From: Lishizhenia tianjinensis
GTDB lineage: Bacteria; Bacteroidota; Bacteroidia; Flavobacteriales_D; Crocinitomicaceae
Direction of reading: 5' to 3'
Assembly: GCA_943330745.2 (NCBI GenBank)
Contig: CALQIX020000012.1
Span: forward strand, 1 to 64,000
DNA length: 64,000 nt
This document shows positions 42,611 to 58,055 of this stretch, in pieces. The notes beneath the pieces are model-generated. The model had not been told where the DNA came from and did no database searches. It saw only the letters and a program-made list of their open reading frames with translations. Position 1 is the first letter of the stretch. Every line of letters starts with the position of its first letter. The translations under genes and the position numbers were made by a program.

Positions 42611-43354
42611 ATGAAAATTGAAATTTGGAGTGATATTGTTTGTCCATTTTGCTATTTAGGAAAAAAGAAATTGGAACGGGCCATCGAAAAAGTTGGTTTG
42701 ATTGATGATGCTGAAGTTATTTGGCATAGCTATCAATTGGATCCTGATTTTCCGATAGGCATTTCAGTTCCTTCTACTCAATATTTGTCAGAAAAAAAAG
42801 GATATCCATTAAATCAAATTCAAGCTATTCAACATCAATTGAGGGAGCAAGCATTGGATTATGGGTTTGATTTTAACTTTGATACGGCTCTTTCGTTTAA
42901 TACAGGTAAGGTACATCAATTGTTGCATTGGGGTAACCAATTTGGAAAAACGAATGAATTGAAAGAAGTGTTCCTGAAAGCGTATTTTACAGATGGAATT
43001 GATTTGAGTATCAATCAGAATATAGCTCAATTAGTCATAAAAGTAGGGTTAGATGAAAACGAAGCATTGCTAATATTATCTAGCGAAAAATACAAGGATG
43101 AGGTTGAAGCCGATTATTATGCCGCCAGTCAAATAGGGGTGAGAGGAGTTCCATTTTTTCTGATTAATAATCAAACGGCTATTTCAGGAGCTCAGCCAGA
43201 TCAAGTATTTGAACAAGTATTGCAAACTGAAATGATTAAATCAGGTATTTCCGTTAAAACTTCTACAGATGGAACGTGTTCAATAGATGGCTGTAAATTA
43301 GTTGACGTACCATTTTTTTCTCAACCAAAAAGCCAGACGAACCATCAAAATTAA
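42611..43354 (+). CDS. FrnE-like DsbA-family oxidoreductase
   Basis: The start is ATG 42611 (MKIEIWSDIVCPFCYLGKK); an in-frame ATG at 42599 adds only four residues. The 247-residue protein has a thioredoxin-fold active site CPFC at about residues 11-14, a helical insertion (about 60-150) and the cis-Pro region GVRGVPFFLINNQ at about 177-189. It lacks a signal peptide, so it should be cytoplasmic. FrnE of Deinococcus is a stress-linked disulfide isomerase. A C-terminal Cys pair (TCSIDGC) fits FrnE. The last 19 codons overlap the 3' end of the convergent acr3 gene. Confidence 0.9.
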   Translation: MKIEIWSDIVCPFCYLGKKKLERAIEKVGLIDDAEVIWHSYQLDPDFPIGISVPSTQYLSEKKGYPLNQIQAIQHQLREQALDYGFDFNFDTALSFNTGKVHQLLHWGNQFGKTNELKEVFLKAYFTDGIDLSINQNIAQLVIKVGLDENEALLILSSEKYKDEVEADYYAASQIGVRGVPFFLINNQTAISGAQPDQVFEQVLQTEMIKSGISVKTSTDGTCSIDGCKLVDVPFFSQPKSQTNHQN

Positions 43355-44335
43355 AGCGGGTACCTCTACTAATGGACCTATTACACCCACAAAGGCTTGT
43401 CCACTGTTGATACCAAAAACTCCAATGGATACGGCTATGGCTAATTCGAAATTATTTCCTGATGCAGTGAAAGAAAGAGCCACATTTTCTGCGTAATCCG
43501 CACCTGATTTTTTTGCTAAGTAAAACATTAGGATAAACATTATTGCGAAGAAAATCACCAATGGAATTGCAACCTGAATTACGTCAATAGGGATAGAAAC
43601 AATCATTGCTCCTTTCAAACTGAACATAATTATAATGGTAAAAAGTAAAGCAATTAATGTTATGGGAGAAATTGTCGGAATAAATTTTCGATTTAGCCAA
43701 TCAATACCCTTTGTTTTAATTATTATAAATCGAGAGGATACAGCGAGTAAAAATGGAATTCCTAAGTAAATTCCAACGGTTAGCGCGATATCAGAAAATG
43801 CGATATCAAAAACTTGTGATTCAAATCCGAATAAAGGCAACATGATTTTCAAATAGAAATAGGCGTAAGAACTGAAGAATAAAACTTGCAGTAAACTATT
43901 AATTCCAACAAGTCCAGCTACCAATTCGCGATTGCCTTGTGCTAATTCATTCCAAACCACAACCATGGCAATGCAAGGAGCCAAACCTATGATAATCAAA
44001 CCGGTCATATAGGTAGGATTATCTTTTAAAAAAGTAATAGCCAAAAGAAACATCAGAAAAGGTCCAAAAATCCAAGTGATAAAAAAAGACAGTGAAAGAA
44101 GTTTCGGTTTTTTTAGAATGGAATGAAGTTTTGTGAAATCAACTTTAACCAATGGTGGATACATCATTACGATTAAACCAACGGCCAAAGGGATATTGGT
44201 TGTATTGTAGGTCAATTTGTCCATGAAAGTAGATACTGCTGGAGTAAAGTACCCCAGTAAAACTCCTACAGCCATTGCAAGGAAAATCCATAAAGTAAGA
44301 AATCGATCTAAGAAACCTAAACGCTTTGCTTTCAT
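43298..44335 (-). CDS. acr3: Arsenite efflux transporter Acr3
   Basis: Acr3 exports As(OH)3/arsenite, driven by the proton gradient. The 345-residue protein is almost wholly hydrophobic with about 10 membrane segments. The conserved Cys lies in IIGLAPCIAMVVVWNELAQG at about residue 115, and FTASGNNFELAIAVSIGVFG is the second signature near 290-310. It is last in the ars operon, 6 bp after arsC. It overlaps frnE tail to tail by 57 bp. Confidence 0.95.
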   Translation of the reverse strand: MKAKRLGFLDRFLTLWIFLAMAVGVLLGYFTPAVSTFMDKLTYNTTNIPLAVGLIVMMYPPLVKVDFTKLHSILKKPKLLSLSFFITWIFGPFLMFLLAITFLKDNPTYMTGLIIIGLAPCIAMVVVWNELAQGNRELVAGLVGINSLLQVLFFSSYAYFYLKIMLPLFGFESQVFDIAFSDIALTVGIYLGIPFLLAVSSRFIIIKTKGIDWLNRKFIPTISPITLIALLFTIIIMFSLKGAMIVSIPIDVIQVAIPLVIFFAIMFILMFYLAKKSGADYAENVALSFTASGNNFELAIAVSIGVFGINSGQAFVGVIGPLVEVPALILMVRLAFWLRKKWYVN

Positions 44336-44341
44336 ATTACA

Positions 44342-44953
44342 TTAGTTCACGTTAGAAAATACATATAGACATTCAAGAGCAATTTGGTTCGCTCTTTCTA
44401 GATATTTTTCTACTTCTAATGGAGTTCCATCAAACTCTTTGGGATCATCATAGGTTGTTGAAATGCGCAGCGCAGCCTCGGGAATAAATGGACAATTCGT
44501 TTCGGCATCAGAACAAACCATGATAGCGGCAAAATCCTGTGTTGGATTCCTTGAATCATTAAAAAGCTTGGAGAAACAAAGCAGATTATCATTTTCCCCA
44601 TAATTTATCTCATACAATGGATTAGTTGAATCTGAGCTCCTATGTGTCTCAAATCCTTGATTTTGTAGTGCATTGATAGCATTCGGATGACATCGTGTAA
44701 CTTCCATTCCTCCTGAGTATGTTGTGCAATTATCAATACCGTAGAAACTCGCGGCAGTCTGTGCCCAAATCTGACCAAAAAAACTTCTTCTTGCGTTGTG
44801 CGTGCAGATATAAACTAAGGAAATAGGCTTGTTCGAGTCTTTTCTTTGCTGAATGTAAGCAGTTATTTTCTCTAATATTTCCTTTCTTTTTTCAGGGATT
44901 GAATCAAATTGAGTTATTAAGGATTCGCACAAGGAATTAATTTTATTATTCAT
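44342..44953 (-). CDS. arsC: Arsenate reductase, low-molecular-weight phosphatase type
   Basis: It reduces arsenate to arsenite for Acr3. The 203-residue protein carries the phosphatase loop CTHNARRS at about residues 50-57. A later pair of cysteines, C-x6-C in CSDAETNC near 147-154, matches the redox pair of thioredoxin-coupled ArsC enzymes. FDGTP-like text (EFDGTPLEVEKYLE) is near the end. An N-terminal extension of about 45 residues is seen in Bacteroidota members. It lies between the DUF6428 gene and acr3. Confidence 0.9.
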   Translation of the reverse strand: MNNKINSLCESLITQFDSIPEKRKEILEKITAYIQQRKDSNKPISLVYICTHNARRSFFGQIWAQTAASFYGIDNCTTYSGGMEVTRCHPNAINALQNQGFETHRSSDSTNPLYEINYGENDNLLCFSKLFNDSRNPTQDFAAIMVCSDAETNCPFIPEAALRISTTYDDPKEFDGTPLEVEKYLERANQIALECLYVFSNVN

Positions 44954-44962
44954 AGCATTATT

Positions 44963-45433
44963 TTAACAACATCCGCTTTTTGGATCGCAACAACTATTTT
45001 TAGTTTGTAATTCCGAGAGATTCACTTTTTGTTTTTGGGAGGGAATGCCGCATGCATCTTCTGCTAAACAAGCCGTTTGCTTATTCGTTAGCAAGAATGT
45101 AATCCCATTAAATTCTAGGCCGTATTTTCCAATGGTTTCACTTTGATATTCTACTTCAATTTCAGTATCTCGTAAATGCAAGGCTTTCTCTGCCAATTCA
45201 ACAATCGATTTTAGTTTCTGTGGTGCTATGCGATGATCAAAATCATCTGCTTCCCACAATTGAAAATTTATTACCTGCTCTTCCCGAATCTTGCCACCGC
45301 AATCGATGTAATTTTTTTTGGTTACCCCAACTTCTGTTACATGAAAGTGAATGGGTACAAGCTTTCCATTGGGTAACTGAAATCTAATAGCATTGATGTC
45401 GGTTAAAATTTCTTTAAATTGGTGTAGTTTCAT
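44963..45433 (-). CDS. DUF6428 family protein of the ars operon
   Basis: The 156-residue product has the family pattern: LPNGKLVPIHFHVTEVG at about residues 20-36, KKNYIDCGGKIREEQVINFQ and LWEADDFDHRIAPQKL. It ends in SCCDPKSGCC, a thiol-rich tail that could bind arsenite. The function of the family is unknown. Its position between arsR and arsC is seen repeatedly in Bacteroidota. It starts 21 bp after arsR. Confidence 0.88.
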   Translation of the reverse strand: MKLHQFKEILTDINAIRFQLPNGKLVPIHFHVTEVGVTKKNYIDCGGKIREEQVINFQLWEADDFDHRIAPQKLKSIVELAEKALHLRDTEIEVEYQSETIGKYGLEFNGITFLLTNKQTACLAEDACGIPSQKQKVNLSELQTKNSCCDPKSGCC

Positions 45434-45454
45434 GATTTTTTGTTTTAATTGTTA

Positions 45455-45784
45455 TTAACAGCATTGATCTTCAGGGTGGAAATTCGATAAAATTGAATTG
45501 AAAAAGCTTACTAAATCTTTGATAACTTTTGGATTTATGCAATAACAGATCGCTTTTCCTTCAATTGTCCCTTGAATGATTCCAGCGTTTTTTAACTCTT
45601 TTAAATGTTGAGAAATTGTTGGTTGTGCAAGGGGTAATTCGTTAACAATATCATTGCAAATACATTCTTTTTGATTGAGTAAAAATTGGACGATAGCTAT
45701 TCTGGCTGGATGACCTAGCGCTTTTAATCGATTGGCTGTTTCAATCTGAATTTCTGTATAGCTACTTGTTTTTGATACGCCCAT
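45455..45784 (-). CDS. arsR: ArsR-family metalloregulator
   Basis: The 109-residue repressor has the winged helix-turn-helix core: ANRLKALGHPARIAIVQFLL, the sensor-type segment KECICNDIV (Cys at 41 and 43) and PLAQPTISQHLKELKNAGII. The C-terminus ends DQCC, giving extra thiols. ArsR proteins leave DNA on binding As(III) and so induce the operon. It is the first gene of the minus-strand ars operon, and a palindrome lies directly before its ATG. Confidence 0.95.
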   Translation of the reverse strand: MGVSKTSSYTEIQIETANRLKALGHPARIAIVQFLLNQKECICNDIVNELPLAQPTISQHLKELKNAGIIQGTIEGKAICYCINPKVIKDLVSFFNSILSNFHPEDQCC

Positions 45785-45853: not shown

Positions 45854-45861
45854 TATTTTTG
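45854..45861 (+). promoter_or_regulatory. Candidate -7 element for the cobalamin riboswitch transcript
   Basis: TATTTTTG fits TAnnTTTG and lies just before the riboswitch fold begins near 45868. No good TTG is seen at -33. Transcription would run away from the divergent arsR gene. Confidence 0.5.
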
Positions 45862-45867
45862 TCACGT

Positions 45868-46080
45868 TCTTTGGTTTCCATTGAGTTGGAATTAATAAGG
45901 AATCCGGTGTAAATCCGGAGCTGTATCTGCAGCTGTAAGCACTGTAAGCGGTTGATAACCACTGTGAAAACGGGAAGGTAACTAGCGTTGGTGTGAGCCA
46001 GAAGACTTGCCAATGAGCGGAGAGAAGACTTCAGATTAAAGTCGGACTCGGTTGTGGGAGTGTTGCACCCATGCCTTGCC
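45868..46080 (+). ncRNA. Cobalamin (B12) riboswitch
   Basis: The core shows the class hallmarks. GGAATCCGGTGTAAATCCGG (45899-45918) is the conserved pseudoknot-side hairpin, GCTGT and CTGTAAGC lie in the core, CACTGTGAAAACGGGAAGG follows, and the B12 box AGCCAGAAGACTTGCC is at 45996-46011. After the box, a GC-rich stretch and CCCTCTTTTTTC near 46077-46090 may form the expression platform, either a terminator or an RBS-masking stem. It would switch off the downstream beta-propeller gene when adenosyl- or methylcobalamin is plentiful. Confidence 0.93.
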
Positions 46081-46138
46081 CTCTTTTTTCTTCTTCATGT
46101 TTTTTTAGTTTATTTATTAACCGTTTAAAACAGAACGA

Positions 46139-47386
46139 ATGAAAAAGGTTTTATTTACAATTGGCTTTGGCCTTTCTACGCTTGTGCAGGCGCAAAATTA
46201 TGTACATCAAGCAATTATTTTGAATGAAGGTTACTTTGATTATCAAACGAATGAAATCCTAGTTCCAGTTACTATTGGCAGCTACAATCCGACTACTCAA
46301 CTTTATCAAGTGGTAGATACCTTAGATGGAATGCGTTTTGCTTCTGATTTAATTATTCAAGGGGATTATTATTATGTCGCTGCTGATTCCAGAATTTTCA
46401 AAATGGATTTGAACACGCATCAAGAAATTTCTTCAGTATCATGTCCGGGTGTTAGAAATTTAGGGATATATCAAAATAAATTAGTTGCCACACGAGGAGA
46501 GTATTTAACATCGTATGACTCATATTTACACGTGTATGATGCTACAAGCATGTCATTAATCGCAGCTATTGATACAGTACAAGGTCCAAAATGGGCGACA
46601 CAGAATGTAGTTGTAGATGGTTCAAATGCTTTTATCGCAGTAAACAATGGATACGAATGGGGGAATGAAAAAGGCATCATTGGAAAATTAGATTTGAATT
46701 CCTTGAGCTATGGAAATGAAATAGATTTGGGCCCAGAAGGAAAAAACCCAGATAATTTACTGAAAATTGGTTCATTTATTTATTCGGTAAATAACAAGGA
46801 TTGGACGGGTGCATCTATTTCAAAAATTGCATTGGATGGAACGTCTAATTCCACAGTGAATTTGGCAACTGCATCAACTGGTTGTGGAACATCGGCCTTA
46901 CGTGATGATAAATTGGTGTATCAAATTTCTATGGAGACTACTTTGAACGAATTTGATATTAACATGATGAATAATGTTGGTCCAATTAGCGGACATTCTA
47001 GCAATTATTATGAATTAGCTCAAGAACCAGTTTCAGGGAATTTGTATGCAAGTGAAACAGATTTTTTCTCTTTTGGTAAAGTTCATTTATTTGATTCACA
47101 AAACAATGAGATTAGTAATTTTAACGTGGGCGTTTCTCCAGGAACAGTTGTTTTTGATGTACGTTCATCAGCAGGTGTTTCAGAAATTAATGAGTCTATT
47201 TCGATCTATCCAAATCCTACTGTTGATGAATTGCATGTTATTAAGGAGGGAGTTAAGCGTGTTTTTGATTTGACAGGAAAGTTACTATTCCAATCAAATG
47301 AGAATATATTGAATGTAAGTGATTTAAATCAAGGGATGTATGTGCTTGAGGTAAATGGAGCGAAAGCACATTTTATCAAAAAGTAA
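46139..47386 (+). CDS. T9SS-secreted beta-propeller under B12 control (BtuG-like)
   Basis: The 415-residue protein has a signal peptide (MKKVLFTIGFGLSTLVQAQ). YncE/DUF5074-like propeller blades follow: AIILNEGYFDYQTNE near 25, FASDLIIQGDYYYVAAD, VRNLGIYQNKLVATRG and GKNPDNLLKIGSFIYSVN. The last 70 residues form a type A T9SS sorting domain (SIYPNPTVDELHV, VFDLTGKLLF, LNQGMYVLEVNG). DUF5074-type propellers include BtuG, the surface lipoprotein that captures B12 for BtuB in gut Bacteroides. The riboswitch supports a similar role here, but B12 binding is inferred. No BtuB or other B12 transporter gene is in the window. Confidence 0.82.
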   Translation: MKKVLFTIGFGLSTLVQAQNYVHQAIILNEGYFDYQTNEILVPVTIGSYNPTTQLYQVVDTLDGMRFASDLIIQGDYYYVAADSRIFKMDLNTHQEISSVSCPGVRNLGIYQNKLVATRGEYLTSYDSYLHVYDATSMSLIAAIDTVQGPKWATQNVVVDGSNAFIAVNNGYEWGNEKGIIGKLDLNSLSYGNEIDLGPEGKNPDNLLKIGSFIYSVNNKDWTGASISKIALDGTSNSTVNLATASTGCGTSALRDDKLVYQISMETTLNEFDINMMNNVGPISGHSSNYYELAQEPVSGNLYASETDFFSFGKVHLFDSQNNEISNFNVGVSPGTVVFDVRSSAGVSEINESISIYPNPTVDELHVIKEGVKRVFDLTGKLLFQSNENILNVSDLNQGMYVLEVNGAKAHFIKK

Positions 47387-47403
47387 AAGATTTTAGATGA
47401 TAG

Positions 47404-47436
47404 AATCCCGGTTGTTAAACACAATCGGGATTTTTT
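47404..47436 (+). terminator. Rho-independent terminator after the B12-regulated gene
   Basis: A 12-bp stem (47404-47415 with 47421-47432, one G-T pair) encloses loop TAAAC and is followed by TTTTTT. It shows that the riboswitch controls a single-gene transcript. The convergent HAD gene ends 6 bp further on. Confidence 0.88.
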
Positions 47437-50825: not shown

Positions 50826-53800
50826 TTACCGAAGAAGGTTGACGTGTCCTGCTTTGTCATATACCCGATAATCATACCAAGTAAATTGCATTTTCCAAGT
50901 ATATGTTCCGTCTTGACAATTATTTCCATGGTAGTTACCATCCCATCCTTTAGATGGGTCCGTCGTTTCAAATACGAGTTCCCCCCAGCGATTAAATACT
51001 TGAACCTTGTATTTTTTTATATTGTCTAAATTAGAAAAAATAGGTAGCCACACATCATTTCGGTTGTCTCCATCAGGGATAAACGTATTTGGAATGTAAT
51101 AGAATGGATCATTGTTAAATAAGATTTGCTGATAAGCTGTATCAGCACAACCTTCCGTTGTTACAGCATATAGTGTAATCATAAATGTATCTGCAATATT
51201 GGCTGGGTATTCATATGCTCCAGGTTCAAAATACATTTCATCATGATCACCAACACCCATATTCCAAATGTAGAAATCACCACCAATTGAAGTGTTTAAA
51301 ATCGTAGTTACAGGAGTTTCAGGGAACAAAATGATAGGGTCAGCAGTCAAACTCGCTGATGGGGTTTGATTTACTGTTATGTAGTTGCTATACGTTATGT
51401 CGTTAAAACATCCGTTGGCATCATAGGCAATCAGATTTACATCGTACACTCCTCCCGTATCAAATGTTATAATAACATCATCGCATCCAGTATAACTCAA
51501 TGAATCACCAAATGTCCACGCGCAATTAAAATTAGCGTCCGAAGTATTAAAAAACTCAACAACTAGTGGAGAACAACCAACAAGGATGTCCGAATCAAAT
51601 GAAGGTTGGATTTGTGCTGGTTGGTCAAGGAAACAATCTAAATCGAAAATACATCCATTGGCATCCGTAATTTGAACTGAATAATTACCAGTAGGAATGG
51701 AGTCAATCATTGATGTTGAATCATTTGTTGACCAATTATATTGATAGCCTGGTGTGCCTCCAGTTGCAGAAACAATTAATTGACCATCTGAGTAACCAAA
51801 GCACTGAGGTTCTAAAGTTGAGTATGTAGCGTTCAGTGGCGCTGCTGGTTGAAAAATGATGGCAGTTTCTACGTATGTGCAACTAGTTGAATCAATGACT
51901 TGTATAGCAAAGACTCCAATAGGAAGTGAATCAATAAATAGGGTGGTATCAGATGTAGACCAAGAGAACTGATAAGGTGCTGTTCCACCAAAAATACTTG
52001 CTTCAATACTTCCTGTACTATCACCAAAACAATTCACGTTTTCAATCGTGAACGTTACGTCAATTGGAGCTTGGGGTTGACTTAAACTGACAACTAAGGT
52101 ATCGTCGCATCCTACTAAATCAGTTACAACGACTTGATAATTCCCTGCAACAAGAGTTGAAATATCCTCTGTTTGTTGGTTGTTTGACCAATTGTAACTG
52201 TAAATTGGTGTTCCACCACTTACCGATAAATCAATCGATCCAGTAGCTGCTCCAAAGCAAAGGATGTCTTGATGGCTCTCGCTTAGTTGTATGGGTTCTG
52301 CGGGTTGTGTAATGAGCGTTGAAATTGAGTCTTGACAATTATTTATATCCGTTACAATAACTTGATAAATACCAGTATCAAGCAAGAAAACATCTTGAGT
52401 GGGTTGACCGTTATTCCAAGAATATGAATAAGTTGGAGTGCCTCCTGCAACCGTTAAATTGATTGAGGCTGTCGATTCACCAAAACAAGCAACATTGGTT
52501 TGAGTTAATGAAAGTGTTATGGGTTGAGCTGGTTGTGAAACGGCATAGGTGAAATTTCGTATGCAACCATTTGAATCTGTGATTTGAACAGAATAACTCC
52601 CCGTTGAAAGTGAGTCAATGTCTTGGGTTGTTTCACCATTAGACCAAAGATACATATATGGAGCAATTCCTCCTGAAACGGTAATGTTTAAAAATCCATC
52701 GCTGCCACCGAAACATTTAACAGGGCTCATTAATGCTGTAGATTGAATTTGAGTGGGTTGATATATTGTCGTATCAACAAGAAGTTGACACCCATTTACA
52801 TCGCTAATAACAACTTGATAATTACCTGCAGTTAAATGAGTAATGTCTGCTGTGTTTTGAGAATTAGACCACGAATAATTATAGGTTGACGAACCTCCGA
52901 AAACGCTTAAATCGATAGCCCCTAATGCAGCACCAAAACACAGGTTGTTAGTTGTCATTAAACTATAAGACAAAGGCGCAATAGGTTGATTGATTTGGGC
53001 AGTGTCATAAGCTAAACATCCATTTGCATCGGTAACTAGTACAGTGTATTGTCCTGCGATTAGGTTGTTTAGTCCTGATGTGATAGCTAGATTACTCCAA
53101 GCATAAGAATAAGGAAGAACACCTCCTTGAACGGAAGAACTGATGCTGCCGGAAGCATTTCCATAACATAAAACGTTTGTTGGATTTAAATTGACCGTAA
53201 GTAAATTTGGCTGCGTAACAGTAATATTAGCCGTTGATTGACAATTATTTACATCTGTTACAACAACAGAATAATTTCCTGCAACTAATCCTATTGCGGT
53301 TTGCGCTGTTTGGCCATTTGACCATAGGTATGTGTACCCTGCAGTTCCTCCAAAAGCCATTACAGTAGCTGTTCCTGTGGCTTGAGAATAACAAATCACC
53401 GGAGTCATTGAAATTTGGGACGTTAATGCTGATGTGGGTTGAGAAATATAATAAGATTGTGTTGAGCTACATCCTTTGAAATCAGTCGCTGTTACGGTGT
53501 AATTTCCTGATTGTAAATTATATTGATCTTCCACTGTTGAGGCATTGGACCAATTATATACATAATTACCATTTCCACCGTTGGCCGTTATATTGATTGA
53601 TCCATTGGTGCCACCGGTGCAAGAAACTGGTGACACAATTCCGGAGAGTGATACTGCCGCACTTGGTTGTATAATTGGTACAGTGGTTGATGTAGTACAA
53701 TTGTTCCCGTCTGTTAGAATCAATGTGTAATTCCCTGCGGCTAAATTACTTATGTCTTGTGTGGTTGCTTGATTGCTCCAAGAATATTGGTAGTTTCCAA

Positions 53801-56800
53801 CTCCTCCAGCAGGAGTAATATCAATGGATCCCGTGCTGTTTGAAAAACAATTAACATCTATGTGTCCTTGACCAATCACCAAATCTAAGGGTTGATAAAT
53901 AATTGTTGAGAAGCTAAATTGACATCCATTGGCATCTGTAATAGTTAAGGAGTAACTGCCCGCCATAAGGTTTACTAAATCTTCAGTAGTTGCTCCATTT
54001 GACCAGAAATAACTATATGGTGCGGTGCCACCTGAAGTTGTAATTTGAATTGACCCGGTTAATTGACCAAAACACAGTACATCTGTTATTATTGCTGTGG
54101 CTGTCAAAGCGCTATCTGGCTCATCAACTAATACAGATATAAATGATTGACACGTATTTGCATCTGTTACAATGACAAAATAGTTTCCTTGTATCAATCC
54201 AGTAGCATCTTGACCAACTTGTCCATTTGACCATGAATATGTATAGGATGGAGTTCCTCCTAAAACGTTTAGGTCAATAAATCCATTGGATCCACTATAG
54301 CATGAAACGTCCGTATGACTCGTTGATAATACAAGGGTGTTGGAAGGATCTAGGATAGCAATAGATATCGTATCAAAACATAAATGATTATCAGTAACAA
54401 CACACGAATAAGTTCCGGCAACTAAATTCTGTATGTCCTGAATCGTTTGATTGTTATTCCAATTGTATGTATATGGACTCGTTCCGCCACTCACAGTTAA
54501 GTCAATTGTTCCTTGTAGGCCGCCCACACAAACAGCATCTGTGTGTGTTTCAGTAAGAGACAGAGGAGAAATTGGTTGTTGAACATTGATTGTTCGATTG
54601 GCTTGGCACCCATTATTATCTGTAACAGTAACCAAATATATTCCTGCTGGTATATTGGTTAGGTCTTCTTGAGTTGATCCATTGGACCAAAGGAATGTGA
54701 AGGGAGCTGTACCACCATTTGGCATTAGGTTGATTGATCCGGTTGAATTCCCGTAACACAAAACATCAACTTGTGAGTGCATTAAACTAACCGGTGCTGG
54801 TTCTGTAATAACGGTGTCTCCAACGATAATACAACCATTTAAATCTGTTACGGTTACTTGATAAAATCCAGAACCAACAGCAGGAAGATCTTCCGTTAAT
54901 GCCCCGTTATTCCATAAATAAGCATAAGGAATTGTTCCGCCTGAAATTGAAATATCAATATTTCCGTCAATTCCACCGAAGCAATCTGGTTCATCCATCG
55001 TTAGTGAAAGCGAAAGTGGTGACGCGGGTTGTGTAATTGTTCCAATATTTGTTGAAATGCAATTATTTGCATCCGAAATTTGAACACTATAATTTCCAAC
55101 TGATAAATTCGAAATATCTTCAGAAGTAGCAGCATTAGACCAAATAAAAGTATATGGGGCTGTTCCTCCGGTTGGGTTTAAATTTATTATCCCTGAAGCT
55201 CCACCAAAACAAGCTACAGGAGATACAGCAATACTTGATGAAAGTGCTGCATTTGGTTGGGTTACCGTAATTGTTAAAACAGAAGTACATCCTTTGAAAT
55301 CAGTTACTGTCACCGAATAATTACCCGCTATTAAATTAGAAATATCTTGAGTTGTTTGTCCACTAGACCATGCATAAGTATAAGGGCTTGTTCCTCCAGC
55401 AACCGTTAAATCAATACTTCCAGTGCTATTTCCAAAACACTTTACGTTTAAATGGGTTTGAGTTAAGGATAAAGGGGCTGCCGGTTGGGTAATGCTAATA
55501 GTTGATTGTTTGATACAACCGTTCAAGTCAGTAGCTGAGACAGTATACGAACCAGCTGAAAGTGAGTTTATATCTTCTGTAGTTTGTCCACTGGGTGCCC
55601 AAGAATAAATATATCCAGGAGTACCACCGGAGGATGTCAAGTTAATTGAACCATTTGATCCGCCAAAACAAGAAACATTGATTTTTGTGTTTGTCAATGT
55701 GATTGCTGTGGGTTGTGTCAAAGTAACGGAGCTTGTTTTTATACAGCCGTTTGCATCCGTTATAGTGGCTGTGTAGGTACCAGGTCCTAAATTAGAAACG
55801 GAAGGAGTTGAGGCTCCTCCTGGTGACCATGAAATCGAATAAGGTGCTGTTCCTCCCGAATAAGAAACAGATGCAGATCCATCAGAAGCACCAAAACAAC
55901 TTATGTTTTTGCCATTATAATTAGAGGTTATGACCGATTGAGCCGTCAAAGCGGTTGGTTGTGTAATTGTATAACTCGCTGTAGCTGTGCAGGTATTCTG
56001 GTCAGTTGCTGTAACGGTATAACTGCCGGGAGCTAAATTTGAAATTGTTGGAGTGTTTAAGTTGTTGCTCCATGAGTATGTGAAAGGACTATTTCCTATG
56101 CCAGCTACTGTTATCGATCCATTATTGGAATTAAAGCACAAACTATTCGATAAATTTACTTGTTGGATGGTAGGATTCTGGTAAATGACAACACTATCAA
56201 ATAAATTGTTATAGGTACAGGAACCATCCTGCAACGAAACACTCAAGGAGTACATTCCTGAATTGATTGCAGACGCATTAGGAATTGAAATGGAGGATGA
56301 ATCAGATATGAACCCATTTGGACCAGTCCAAGAATAATTAGCGTAAGATGAATAAGGAGCTGTTAGTAGCAGATTGTCCCCAATACAAAATGGGGCGTTA
56401 TCGATAATTGAAATTTGTGGGCAGTTAGGTGCGAATACTGAAATTAAATTACTTGATGTAGATGGACAACCATTTGCATCATATAGATCGGAAGCGCCAC
56501 CGTTATTATACGAATTACTCGAGATGCCACCAGTTCCAAAAATGTATGCTTTGTTTTCAAGTGTGCTATCGCAACTTAAAATAACACAATCGTCTACGAC
56601 ACGCACTCTGAATCGAACCACGGCACTGTCTGATCCAGTTGATGTATTTAACATGAGCCCACCTGTCGAATTTGTTGCCCCACTGTTTACACGCGCTTTT
56701 ATAATTCGATTAATCGGATCGTATTCTGCTTGATCATCTCCAGTGGCATCTGTTTTTGTTCCAACGAATGGACCGTTCAAATAACTAATTGAATTAGGAA

Positions 56801-58055
56801 CGTAATCCGTTCGGATATCTAAGGTATCATTAATGAAGGTGTTAAAAGATTGGTCAGACCCAATATTCTTACCTACTATGGTATATTCTAAAATATCATT
56901 TGGTTGTGCAGGTGCGCCATTTAGATCGTTGATATAAACCGTTGCGCGCAAATCTGGCTCGTAAATATCGATGGCAGAGGTAATTACTCGTGGTAAGATG
57001 GCGTCCTGGGTCGTTGCAACTCTTACTGTAGCCGATGTTGCACTATTCGGAAGGTACGTTTGTGTGGTGTTATTTGGTGAAAAAATTCCGGCATCAAAGC
57101 CTAGAGTGTTATTATAACTGGGAATTCTGTAAGGAGTTAATGCTCCATTGTAGGTCAATGTGCTATTAAAAAAATCATTGGCATTTCTTAAAGGATCAGG
57201 TACATTTAAAAAAGTTCCGTTCCCGTTGAATTGCAACTTATCTCCTTGAATCGAGCGATCCCCCTCATACGCAACAACCCCTAATTCAAAACTGACTGGC
57301 CCAACAGAAGGTGTCGTAAAACCCGAAATTGGAATATCAAGATCATTGCCATTACTCACATAAGCCATTCCGTCAAAAACGGTTAAATTTCGCATGGATT
57401 GAAGTGAGTTTTTGTAAACAACCACGATAGTCCAAGCACCAAACAAATTATTTGATCCCGTTCGAGAAACAATATTAGCAACCGTAAAACGACCGTTTCC
57501 ATTCGTTGGTTGAACAAGAGAAGTAATGTTTTTAAAGCAAAAGTATCCTGGCATTGCGAAATTGTTATTGCCCGGTATAGTTGTAACATCCAACAAATCA
57601 TCAGCAACCAGATTTACGTAAGCGCCATTATTCACTTTTAATTTTACTTGGTTTCTAATGGCATAATTTGTCGTTGTGGTGGTGATTCTGGCAGACCAAT
57701 AAAGTCCAGCCCAAGAAATTTCGCTGCACATGTCAAGGTTCAAACTATCACTACTAGACATCCATGTAGCTGTAGTATTGTCTGTGTCAACATAACCTAA
57801 AGTGATTCCGCCATCTTGGTTGTGATTACCGGAGGGAGGAAATTGATTTTGATACGTAGCACAATTGGTGTTACCTGAATTACATGTCAAAGCAACATTG
57901 GACAATAGCATTATACCACCTTTTTGATTTGTTTGATAACGAATATTAAAAGGAGAAACAATTTGACTGTGCGAAGCAAAATGGAACATTGATAATGTTA
58001 TGATTATCAATAATATATAAATTTCCTTAGGATAAAGAGATTTTTGTAGTATCAT
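50826..58055 (-). CDS. Giant SprB-repeat surface protein with type B T9SS sorting domain
   Basis: The 2409-residue protein starts with a hydrophobic signal (IYILLIIITLSMFHFASHSQ). An N-terminal domain of about 330 residues (GGIMLLSNVALTCNSGN) is followed by a DUF11-like domain (DLRATVYINDLNGAPAQPND) and a Cys-rich Ig-like part. Twenty SprB repeats of about 76 residues fill residues about 624-2148; each has CFG, GGTxPYxYxWS, DISNLxAGNYxVxVTDxNGC and QP. Two PKD-like domains and the type B sorting domain follow (IPNTFIPDGDNRNDVW, VFNRWGELVFETT). SprB in Flavobacterium is the motile adhesin of gliding. This is a probable T9SS-exported adhesin, and a motility role is inference. Confidence 0.93.
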   Translation of the reverse strand: MILQKSLYPKEIYILLIIITLSMFHFASHSQIVSPFNIRYQTNQKGGIMLLSNVALTCNSGNTNCATYQNQFPPSGNHNQDGGITLGYVDTDNTTATWMSSSDSLNLDMCSEISWAGLYWSARITTTTTNYAIRNQVKLKVNNGAYVNLVADDLLDVTTIPGNNNFAMPGYFCFKNITSLVQPTNGNGRFTVANIVSRTGSNNLFGAWTIVVVYKNSLQSMRNLTVFDGMAYVSNGNDLDIPISGFTTPSVGPVSFELGVVAYEGDRSIQGDKLQFNGNGTFLNVPDPLRNANDFFNSTLTYNGALTPYRIPSYNNTLGFDAGIFSPNNTTQTYLPNSATSATVRVATTQDAILPRVITSAIDIYEPDLRATVYINDLNGAPAQPNDILEYTIVGKNIGSDQSFNTFINDTLDIRTDYVPNSISYLNGPFVGTKTDATGDDQAEYDPINRIIKARVNSGATNSTGGLMLNTSTGSDSAVVRFRVRVVDDCVILSCDSTLENKAYIFGTGGISSNSYNNGGASDLYDANGCPSTSSNLISVFAPNCPQISIIDNAPFCIGDNLLLTAPYSSYANYSWTGPNGFISDSSSISIPNASAINSGMYSLSVSLQDGSCTYNNLFDSVVIYQNPTIQQVNLSNSLCFNSNNGSITVAGIGNSPFTYSWSNNLNTPTISNLAPGSYTVTATDQNTCTATASYTITQPTALTAQSVITSNYNGKNISCFGASDGSASVSYSGGTAPYSISWSPGGASTPSVSNLGPGTYTATITDANGCIKTSSVTLTQPTAITLTNTKINVSCFGGSNGSINLTSSGGTPGYIYSWAPSGQTTEDINSLSAGSYTVSATDLNGCIKQSTISITQPAAPLSLTQTHLNVKCFGNSTGSIDLTVAGGTSPYTYAWSSGQTTQDISNLIAGNYSVTVTDFKGCTSVLTITVTQPNAALSSSIAVSPVACFGGASGIINLNPTGGTAPYTFIWSNAATSEDISNLSVGNYSVQISDANNCISTNIGTITQPASPLSLSLTMDEPDCFGGIDGNIDISISGGTIPYAYLWNNGALTEDLPAVGSGFYQVTVTDLNGCIIVGDTVITEPAPVSLMHSQVDVLCYGNSTGSINLMPNGGTAPFTFLWSNGSTQEDLTNIPAGIYLVTVTDNNGCQANRTINVQQPISPLSLTETHTDAVCVGGLQGTIDLTVSGGTSPYTYNWNNNQTIQDIQNLVAGTYSCVVTDNHLCFDTISIAILDPSNTLVLSTSHTDVSCYSGSNGFIDLNVLGGTPSYTYSWSNGQVGQDATGLIQGNYFVIVTDANTCQSFISVLVDEPDSALTATAIITDVLCFGQLTGSIQITTSGGTAPYSYFWSNGATTEDLVNLMAGSYSLTITDANGCQFSFSTIIYQPLDLVIGQGHIDVNCFSNSTGSIDITPAGGVGNYQYSWSNQATTQDISNLAAGNYTLILTDGNNCTTSTTVPIIQPSAAVSLSGIVSPVSCTGGTNGSINITANGGNGNYVYNWSNASTVEDQYNLQSGNYTVTATDFKGCSSTQSYYISQPTSALTSQISMTPVICYSQATGTATVMAFGGTAGYTYLWSNGQTAQTAIGLVAGNYSVVVTDVNNCQSTANITVTQPNLLTVNLNPTNVLCYGNASGSISSSVQGGVLPYSYAWSNLAITSGLNNLIAGQYTVLVTDANGCLAYDTAQINQPIAPLSYSLMTTNNLCFGAALGAIDLSVFGGSSTYNYSWSNSQNTADITHLTAGNYQVVISDVNGCQLLVDTTIYQPTQIQSTALMSPVKCFGGSDGFLNITVSGGIAPYMYLWSNGETTQDIDSLSTGSYSVQITDSNGCIRNFTYAVSQPAQPITLSLTQTNVACFGESTASINLTVAGGTPTYSYSWNNGQPTQDVFLLDTGIYQVIVTDINNCQDSISTLITQPAEPIQLSESHQDILCFGAATGSIDLSVSGGTPIYSYNWSNNQQTEDISTLVAGNYQVVVTDLVGCDDTLVVSLSQPQAPIDVTFTIENVNCFGDSTGSIEASIFGGTAPYQFSWSTSDTTLFIDSLPIGVFAIQVIDSTSCTYVETAIIFQPAAPLNATYSTLEPQCFGYSDGQLIVSATGGTPGYQYNWSTNDSTSMIDSIPTGNYSVQITDANGCIFDLDCFLDQPAQIQPSFDSDILVGCSPLVVEFFNTSDANFNCAWTFGDSLSYTGCDDVIITFDTGGVYDVNLIAYDANGCFNDITYSNYITVNQTPSASLTADPIILFPETPVTTILNTSIGGDFYIWNMGVGDHDEMYFEPGAYEYPANIADTFMITLYAVTTEGCADTAYQQILFNNDPFYYIPNTFIPDGDNRNDVWLPIFSNLDNIKKYKVQVFNRWGELVFETTDPSKGWDGNYHGNNCQDGTYTWKMQFTWYDYRVYDKAGHVNLLR
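51610..56182. repeat. Twenty diverged SprB-coding repeats of about 228 bp
   Basis: The repeats average 76 codons and tile the gene without spacers. Protein-level landmarks recur regularly but DNA identity between units is modest, so this is an old array under selection, unlike the fresh 72-bp array at the left edge. Every repeat keeps two cysteines (CFG and NGC positions), which could form one disulfide per unit. Confidence 0.88.

Follow-up and report, generated by a model that had tools for sequence, protein, structure and literature searches.

A T9SS-tagged BtuG-like propeller gene under a cobalamin riboswitch alternates with the BtuB operon in the genus of Lishizhenia tianjinensis

A single-gene unit behind a cobalamin riboswitch

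The window analyzed here is the whole stretch of 64,000 nucleotides of Lishizhenia tianjinensis DNA (contig CALQIX020000012.1, positions 1 to 64,000). A cobalamin riboswitch aptamer was identified at 45855..46028 (+); it spans the full RF00174 model (1-189) and, at 101.3 bits (E 3.6e-24) against a gathering score of 31.5 bits, belongs to that family. The next gene 3' of it, in the same orientation, encodes a 415-aa T9SS-tagged BtuG-like beta-propeller protein (46139..47386, +; open reading frame list, profiles, and predicted model), and an intrinsic terminator-like hairpin at 47402..47434 (+) closes the unit. Because the genes on either flank lie on the opposite strand, the riboswitch-propeller unit is monocistronic. 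The reading of this locus in a first-pass annotation, as a B12 riboswitch followed by one gene and a terminator, was thus borne out. A genome search for further B12 riboswitches, which that annotation had proposed, was run on the whole 3.06-Mb genome (99.9% complete) and found none besides the window copy. The riboswitch also lies ~100 nt 5' of the propeller gene in other genomes of the genus, with different neighboring genes.

Two features of the flanks were identified by eye only. Directly 5' of the riboswitch is a divergent arsenic-type cluster (43298-45784, -) with genes for an ArsR-like regulator, an arsenate-reductase-like protein, and an arsenite-permease-like protein, and at 50826-58055 (-) lies the gene for an SprB-like repeat protein of 2409 aa with a C-terminus of the gliding-motility type.

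The leader was compared with its orthologues in an alignment of 23 leaders, in which pairings and hairpins were counted out of 22. A Bacteroidota-type -7 promoter box, TATTTTTG (consensus TAnnTTTG; 45854..45861, +), was read directly and is kept in the alignment; no clear -33 element was seen. The L5 loop of the aptamer (TATCTG; 45924..45929, +) is complementary to the L13 loop of a P13-like hairpin (GACTT-CAGATTA-AAGTC; 46027..46043, +) that is near-invariant in the 23 leaders, and at least 4 contiguous L5-L13 pairs were present in 18/22. A hairpin with such an L5-complementary loop corresponds to the P13/L5-L13 kissing-loop arrangement familiar from B12 riboswitches. It is followed by a second hairpin and a T6 run (46044..46089, +), a probable attenuator: its sequence varies among leaders, and hairpin plus T-run are kept in 19 of the 22. 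Fold z values, from shuffles preserving mononucleotide content only, averaged -1.9 for the leader family, the window's own copy being weak (-0.1). The recurrence of a variable hairpin and T-run after P13 suggests that the gene is controlled by premature transcription termination.

A propeller specifically related to BtuG

Residues 19-343 (46193..47167, +) make up a strongly acidic beta-propeller domain in the predicted model of the protein (mean pLDDT 82.8, pTM 0.73). When PDB structures were searched with this model by Foldseek, the best 13 matches were all BtuG, mostly cobalamin-bound (E 4e-15 to 3e-13; TM-score 0.73-0.82 by target length), as expected of a BtuG-type propeller fold. The first non-BtuG match was a designed propeller (8e-11), and then came Escherichia coli YncE (1e-9). 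Sequence profiles gave the same ranking. A profile of 26 orthologues run against PDB sequences with hmmsearch matched, T9SS-tail matches aside, BtuG chains only (3dsm, 8bmy, 8baz, 8bai, 8bn0, 8bmx, 8okv, 8puj, and 8p97; best E 2e-6), and hhalign against Flavobacteriales BtuG lipoproteins encoded beside BtuB aligned 297 columns with a probability of 98.9 and an E value of 1e-17, so that homology to BtuG is evident from sequence as well. The first-pass annotation would have abandoned its BtuG interpretation had the likeness been no better than that of a generic propeller; structural prediction and profiles both placed BtuG above generic propellers, and the window propeller is specifically BtuG-like.

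That annotation had also called the product a DUF5074/YncE-like propeller. The propeller stands, through BtuG-specific profiles and structure; the DUF5074 label does not, as DUF5074 (PF16819) had no Pfam match in the protein at E values up to 10 and the sorting tail is its sole Pfam domain. The DUF5074 model does match the operon-encoded BtuG of a sister species. With sequence identity between the propeller and BtuG at only ~16%, the BtuG/DUF5074 kinship is visible solely through profiles and structure. This low identity, and the fact that beta-propellers are common, would suit a generic extracellular propeller that came under the riboswitch by chance, for example, an adhesin or an enzyme substituting at low B12 for a B12-dependent function. 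We regard that explanation as quite improbable because structure and profile searches both ranked BtuG first, propeller homologues head BtuB operons in relatives, and the ligand loops carry invariant motifs, the last two points being described below.

Across the 26 orthologues, the net charge of the propeller domain ranged from -15 to -31, which fits the negative face reported for BtuG2. Simulations of BtuG2 have been reported in which two loops, Asn54-Thr64 and Asp236-Pro249, grip cobalamin between them (PMC10404256). BtuG2 numbering was fixed on chain 8bmx_D, in which Cys32, Trp194, Asp236, and Trp272 fall as published. The first of these loops reads NEGNFQYSNAT in BtuG2 and NEGYFDYQTNE in the window protein, where the aligned motif NEGYFDYQTN occupies residues 29-38 (46223..46252, +) and N29, E30, G31, D34, and Y35 are invariant among the 26 orthologues. 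By profile alignment, the second, the beta5A loop of BtuG2, corresponds to VNNKDWTGAS at residues 217-226 (46787..46816, +); here N218, N219, K220, D221, and S226 are invariant in the same set, and the residues differ from the BtuG sequence at the aligned site. The NEG..DY and NNKD motifs are probably the counterparts of the cobalamin-gripping loops of BtuG2, which makes the window protein a putative corrinoid binder.

The export signals point to the cell surface or beyond. A signal peptide is predicted at residues 1-19 (46139..46195, +; MKKVLFTIGFGLSTLVQAQ, read by eye), and no lipobox cysteine occurs in the N-terminus (MKKVLFTIGFGLSTLVQAQNYVHQ), so that the protein lacks the lipid export signal by which BtuG becomes a surface lipoprotein. 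At the other end, residues 356-415 (47204..47383, +) form the type A T9SS sorting domain that the first-pass annotation had named, scoring 40 bits with PF18962 (cut-off 27) and 34.8 with TIGR04183 (cut-off 23). Sorting domain and by-eye signal peptide together are those of type A T9SS cargo. Similar T9SS tails were found on several other open frames of the genome.

The BtuB operon and propeller relatives in other Flavobacteriales

In most of the Flavobacteriales genomes that were inspected, the riboswitch leads a four-gene operon, DUF4465-BtuB-BtuG-AAP, that encodes, in order, a T9SS-tagged DUF4465 protein, a receptor of ~650 aa, a DUF5074 BtuG lipoprotein, and a protein of ~320 aa that is usually T9SS-tailed; it was present at loci L119-L122, L137, L138, L156, and L248, among others. 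The receptor, the operon BtuB, had TonB-B12 as its best NCBIfam match (E 4.5e-21), below the cut-off of that model. At two loci from two other families (L117 and L118), the first gene of a riboswitch-BtuB-BtuG operon is a distant homologue of the window propeller (hhalign E 3e-30). As distant homologues head such operons, the propeller family belongs inside B12 uptake operons.

Several further proteins were seen in or near these units. The ~320-aa protein, with the motif APAxGxxGSTAIHKDS and often a T9SS tail, is encoded at the fourth or second position in nearly every Flavobacteriales B12 operon (L119-L123, L137, L138, L156, and L248; e.g., L137:7834-8790:-); the one member scanned had no Pfam family beyond the sorting tail, and we consider this protein a candidate new component of B12 uptake. 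At two loci (L143:9386-10909:- and L147:790-2322:+), a T9SS protein of ~510 aa replaces DUF4465 as the first operon gene; the L143 copy had no Pfam match besides its sorting tail. In family f9 (L131-L136), propeller relatives have a divergent C-terminal tail, and upstream of most of them lies a gene for a very long protein with a dockerin-like motif at its end. No cobalamin riboswitch was detected with any of these f9 relatives, and a further search with permissive settings at four of the loci found none either.

Propeller and BtuB operon are mutually exclusive in three genera

Of the 86 genomes examined from the window's genus, 71 carried the propeller (E at most 1e-12), 8 the riboswitch-DUF4465-BtuB-BtuG operon (BtuB E below 1e-200), none both, and 7 neither, six of the latter being 63-86% complete. 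The probability that all 8 BtuB genomes would fall among the 15 propeller-negative ones is ~1e-7 if genomes are taken as independent, which they are not. Genus g8 was similarly divided, with the propeller but no BtuB in 5 genomes and BtuB but no propeller in 4, as was genus g60, from another family, with 2 propeller genomes and 1 BtuB genome. Within the three genera examined, propeller and BtuB operon are mutually exclusive. The exception lies outside these genera: in two genomes (G005 and G011), a single operon encodes both BtuB and a distant homologue of the propeller.

The alternation also occurs at one chromosomal site. The riboswitch unit of many species in the genus sits between pnp-rpsO and conserved genes for proteins of 339, 164, and 269 aa. 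At this site, with the same genes on both sides, genome G299 carries the lone propeller and G322 the four-gene operon, and in two more genomes (G260 and G238) the four-gene operon lies ahead of the same conserved downstream genes. In the window's species, the unit is at a different site, beside the arsenic-type cluster. The simplest reading is an in-place swap, in which the operon was replaced by one gene under one riboswitch, or the reverse. In a tree of the propellers, genera g1 and g8 are intermingled and f3 sequences fall among g1; supports were moderate, several forks stayed open, and the tree no more than hints at horizontal transfer of the propeller.

Probable B12 use without a detected operon-type BtuB

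The first-pass annotation had noted the absence of an adjacent BtuB, which proved an understatement: besides the opposite-strand neighbors that leave the propeller gene without a linked btuB, a protein search at E 1e-3 found no operon-type BtuB homologue anywhere in the window's genome, a search with one BtuB as query that a very diverged BtuB could escape. Signs of B12 use are nonetheless general in the genus. Proteins with the B12-binding domain PF02310 were found in 85 of the 86 genomes; those of the window's genome include open reading frames that read, by size, as MetH and methylmalonyl-CoA mutase, and one FecCD permease was found there as well. Since the MetH-like and methylmalonyl-CoA-mutase-like genes and the permease are kept, B12 is presumably imported.

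The genome encodes 17 plug-domain TonB receptors, among which a partner for the propeller was sought. For each of the receptors on contigs C36, C27, and C19, orthologues occur in species that retain the BtuB operon. The 812-aa C36 receptor was rejected as a dedicated partner, because BtuB genomes have it whereas many propeller genomes do not, and a receptor pair near metH was rejected since both kinds of genome have it. The C27 receptor, the most TonB-B12-like, has orthologues in 10/10 genomes compared, BtuB carriers included, and so does not discriminate. None of these receptors compared across genomes (C36, C27, C19, and the pair near metH) tracks the propeller. As a separate observation, the C36 receptor is paired with a T9SS protein bearing a GNSNLESW motif (G000:C36:10496-13875; L171), and orthologues of this pair lie immediately 5' of the riboswitch-propeller unit in several relatives (L059, L063, L077, and L084).

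These surveys bear on two other explanations. One is an ordinary BtuB-BtuG system split over two loci, in which a T9SS-exported propeller pairs with a very diverged BtuB. With 17 plug-domain receptors to choose from, and C27 the most TonB-B12-like among them, such a partner is a real possibility, though one we rather doubt, because the C27, C19, and C36 receptors have orthologues in species with a true BtuB operon and none of the three reaches the TonB-B12 cut-off, a cut-off that the operon BtuB does not reach either. The other is that the propeller is released to the water as a B12 sink, public or competitive, that keeps corrinoids from competitors, or as a store, while a constitutive receptor does the uptake. 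A T9SS tail allows release, none of the receptors compared tracks the gene, and the propeller is the only riboswitch target in the genome; reciprocal occurrence with the BtuB operon at one site suggests instead that the propeller does the operon's job, which is uptake, and we think the sink unlikely.

Proposed role of the exported propeller

The explanation we favor, and hold to be probable, is that a T9SS-delivered relative of BtuG captures corrinoids and passes B12 to a receptor other than an operon-type BtuB. It agrees with the first-pass annotation, which had suggested a secreted or surface B12 scavenger. When B12 is scarce, the riboswitch would permit transcription into the propeller gene; the product would enter the periplasm and cross the outer membrane via the type IX system to the cell surface or the medium; there, the acidic propeller would capture corrinoids in its central cavity, between the NEG..DY and NNKD loops, and deliver them to a TonB-dependent receptor of the outer membrane, different from the operon-type BtuB. 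In the window's genus, the propeller would thereby stand in for the riboswitch-DUF4465-BtuB-BtuG operon, which occupies the same site in sister species. The fuller claim, that one T9SS-exported propeller replaced the four-gene operon in place under the same riboswitch and that B12 now enters without any BtuB-type receptor, is put forward tentatively, at a little under an even chance.

The Bacteroides view of B12 capture is one of BtuG lipoproteins that act as lids on BtuB. Here, a relative of BtuG takes an unrelated export route and, in three genera, is confined to genomes that lack BtuB, which raises the questions of how B12 crosses the outer membrane without the operon BtuB and whether a capture protein can work apart from its transporter. 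The window's host is a freshwater bacterium whose sole B12 riboswitch is spent on one exported protein, and the findings bear on B12 capture in freshwater communities, many of whose bacteria are unable to make this vitamin.

Comparison with known systems

In the open literature (subscription journals and preprints were outside the scope), we found no description of a T9SS-exported B12 propeller. Several known or newly seen systems come close. BtuH and BtuJ, which are DUF4465 proteins (PMC8941943, PMC12751083, PMC13398666), are likewise riboswitch-controlled corrinoid-binding surface proteins and are T9SS-exported in Flavobacteriales, yet theirs is a jelly-roll fold, whereas the window protein is a propeller. 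The Flavobacteriales DUF4465-BtuB-BtuG-AAP operon shares with the window unit its riboswitch, its chromosomal site in the genus, and the T9SS tails of its first and usually its last gene products; in contrast, it comprises four genes including a receptor, and the window unit only one. Also similar are T9SS proteins of 575-650 aa from other genera of the same family (L140, L142, L149, L152, and L153), each the product of a lone riboswitch gene, with a T9SS tail and an N-terminal BtuG-like propeller that has an EGN motif and matches BtuG at E 2e-6. Unlike the window protein, they bear HYR domains behind the propeller, and both checked genomes with such a protein (G106 and G052) have a BtuB operon elsewhere, with its own riboswitch.

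The nearest relation in fold is to BtuG itself (BtuG2/BT1954 and BtuG3 of Bacteroides thetaiotaomicron; PMC6143338, PMC10404256), the top structural and profile match, with which the window protein shares the acidic propeller, the NEG loop at the same place as in BtuG2, B12-riboswitch control, and a predicted surface-directed destination. BtuG, however, is a lipoprotein exported by a lipid signal; its gene lies with btuB, and the protein itself binds BtuB. The window protein lacks a lipobox, ends in a T9SS tail, and is encoded alone; BtuG2 acts through BtuB, and no operon-type BtuB was detected in the window's genome. Lacking both the lipoprotein signal and the btuB linkage, it is not a BtuG in the strict sense but a putative BtuG-like capture protein.
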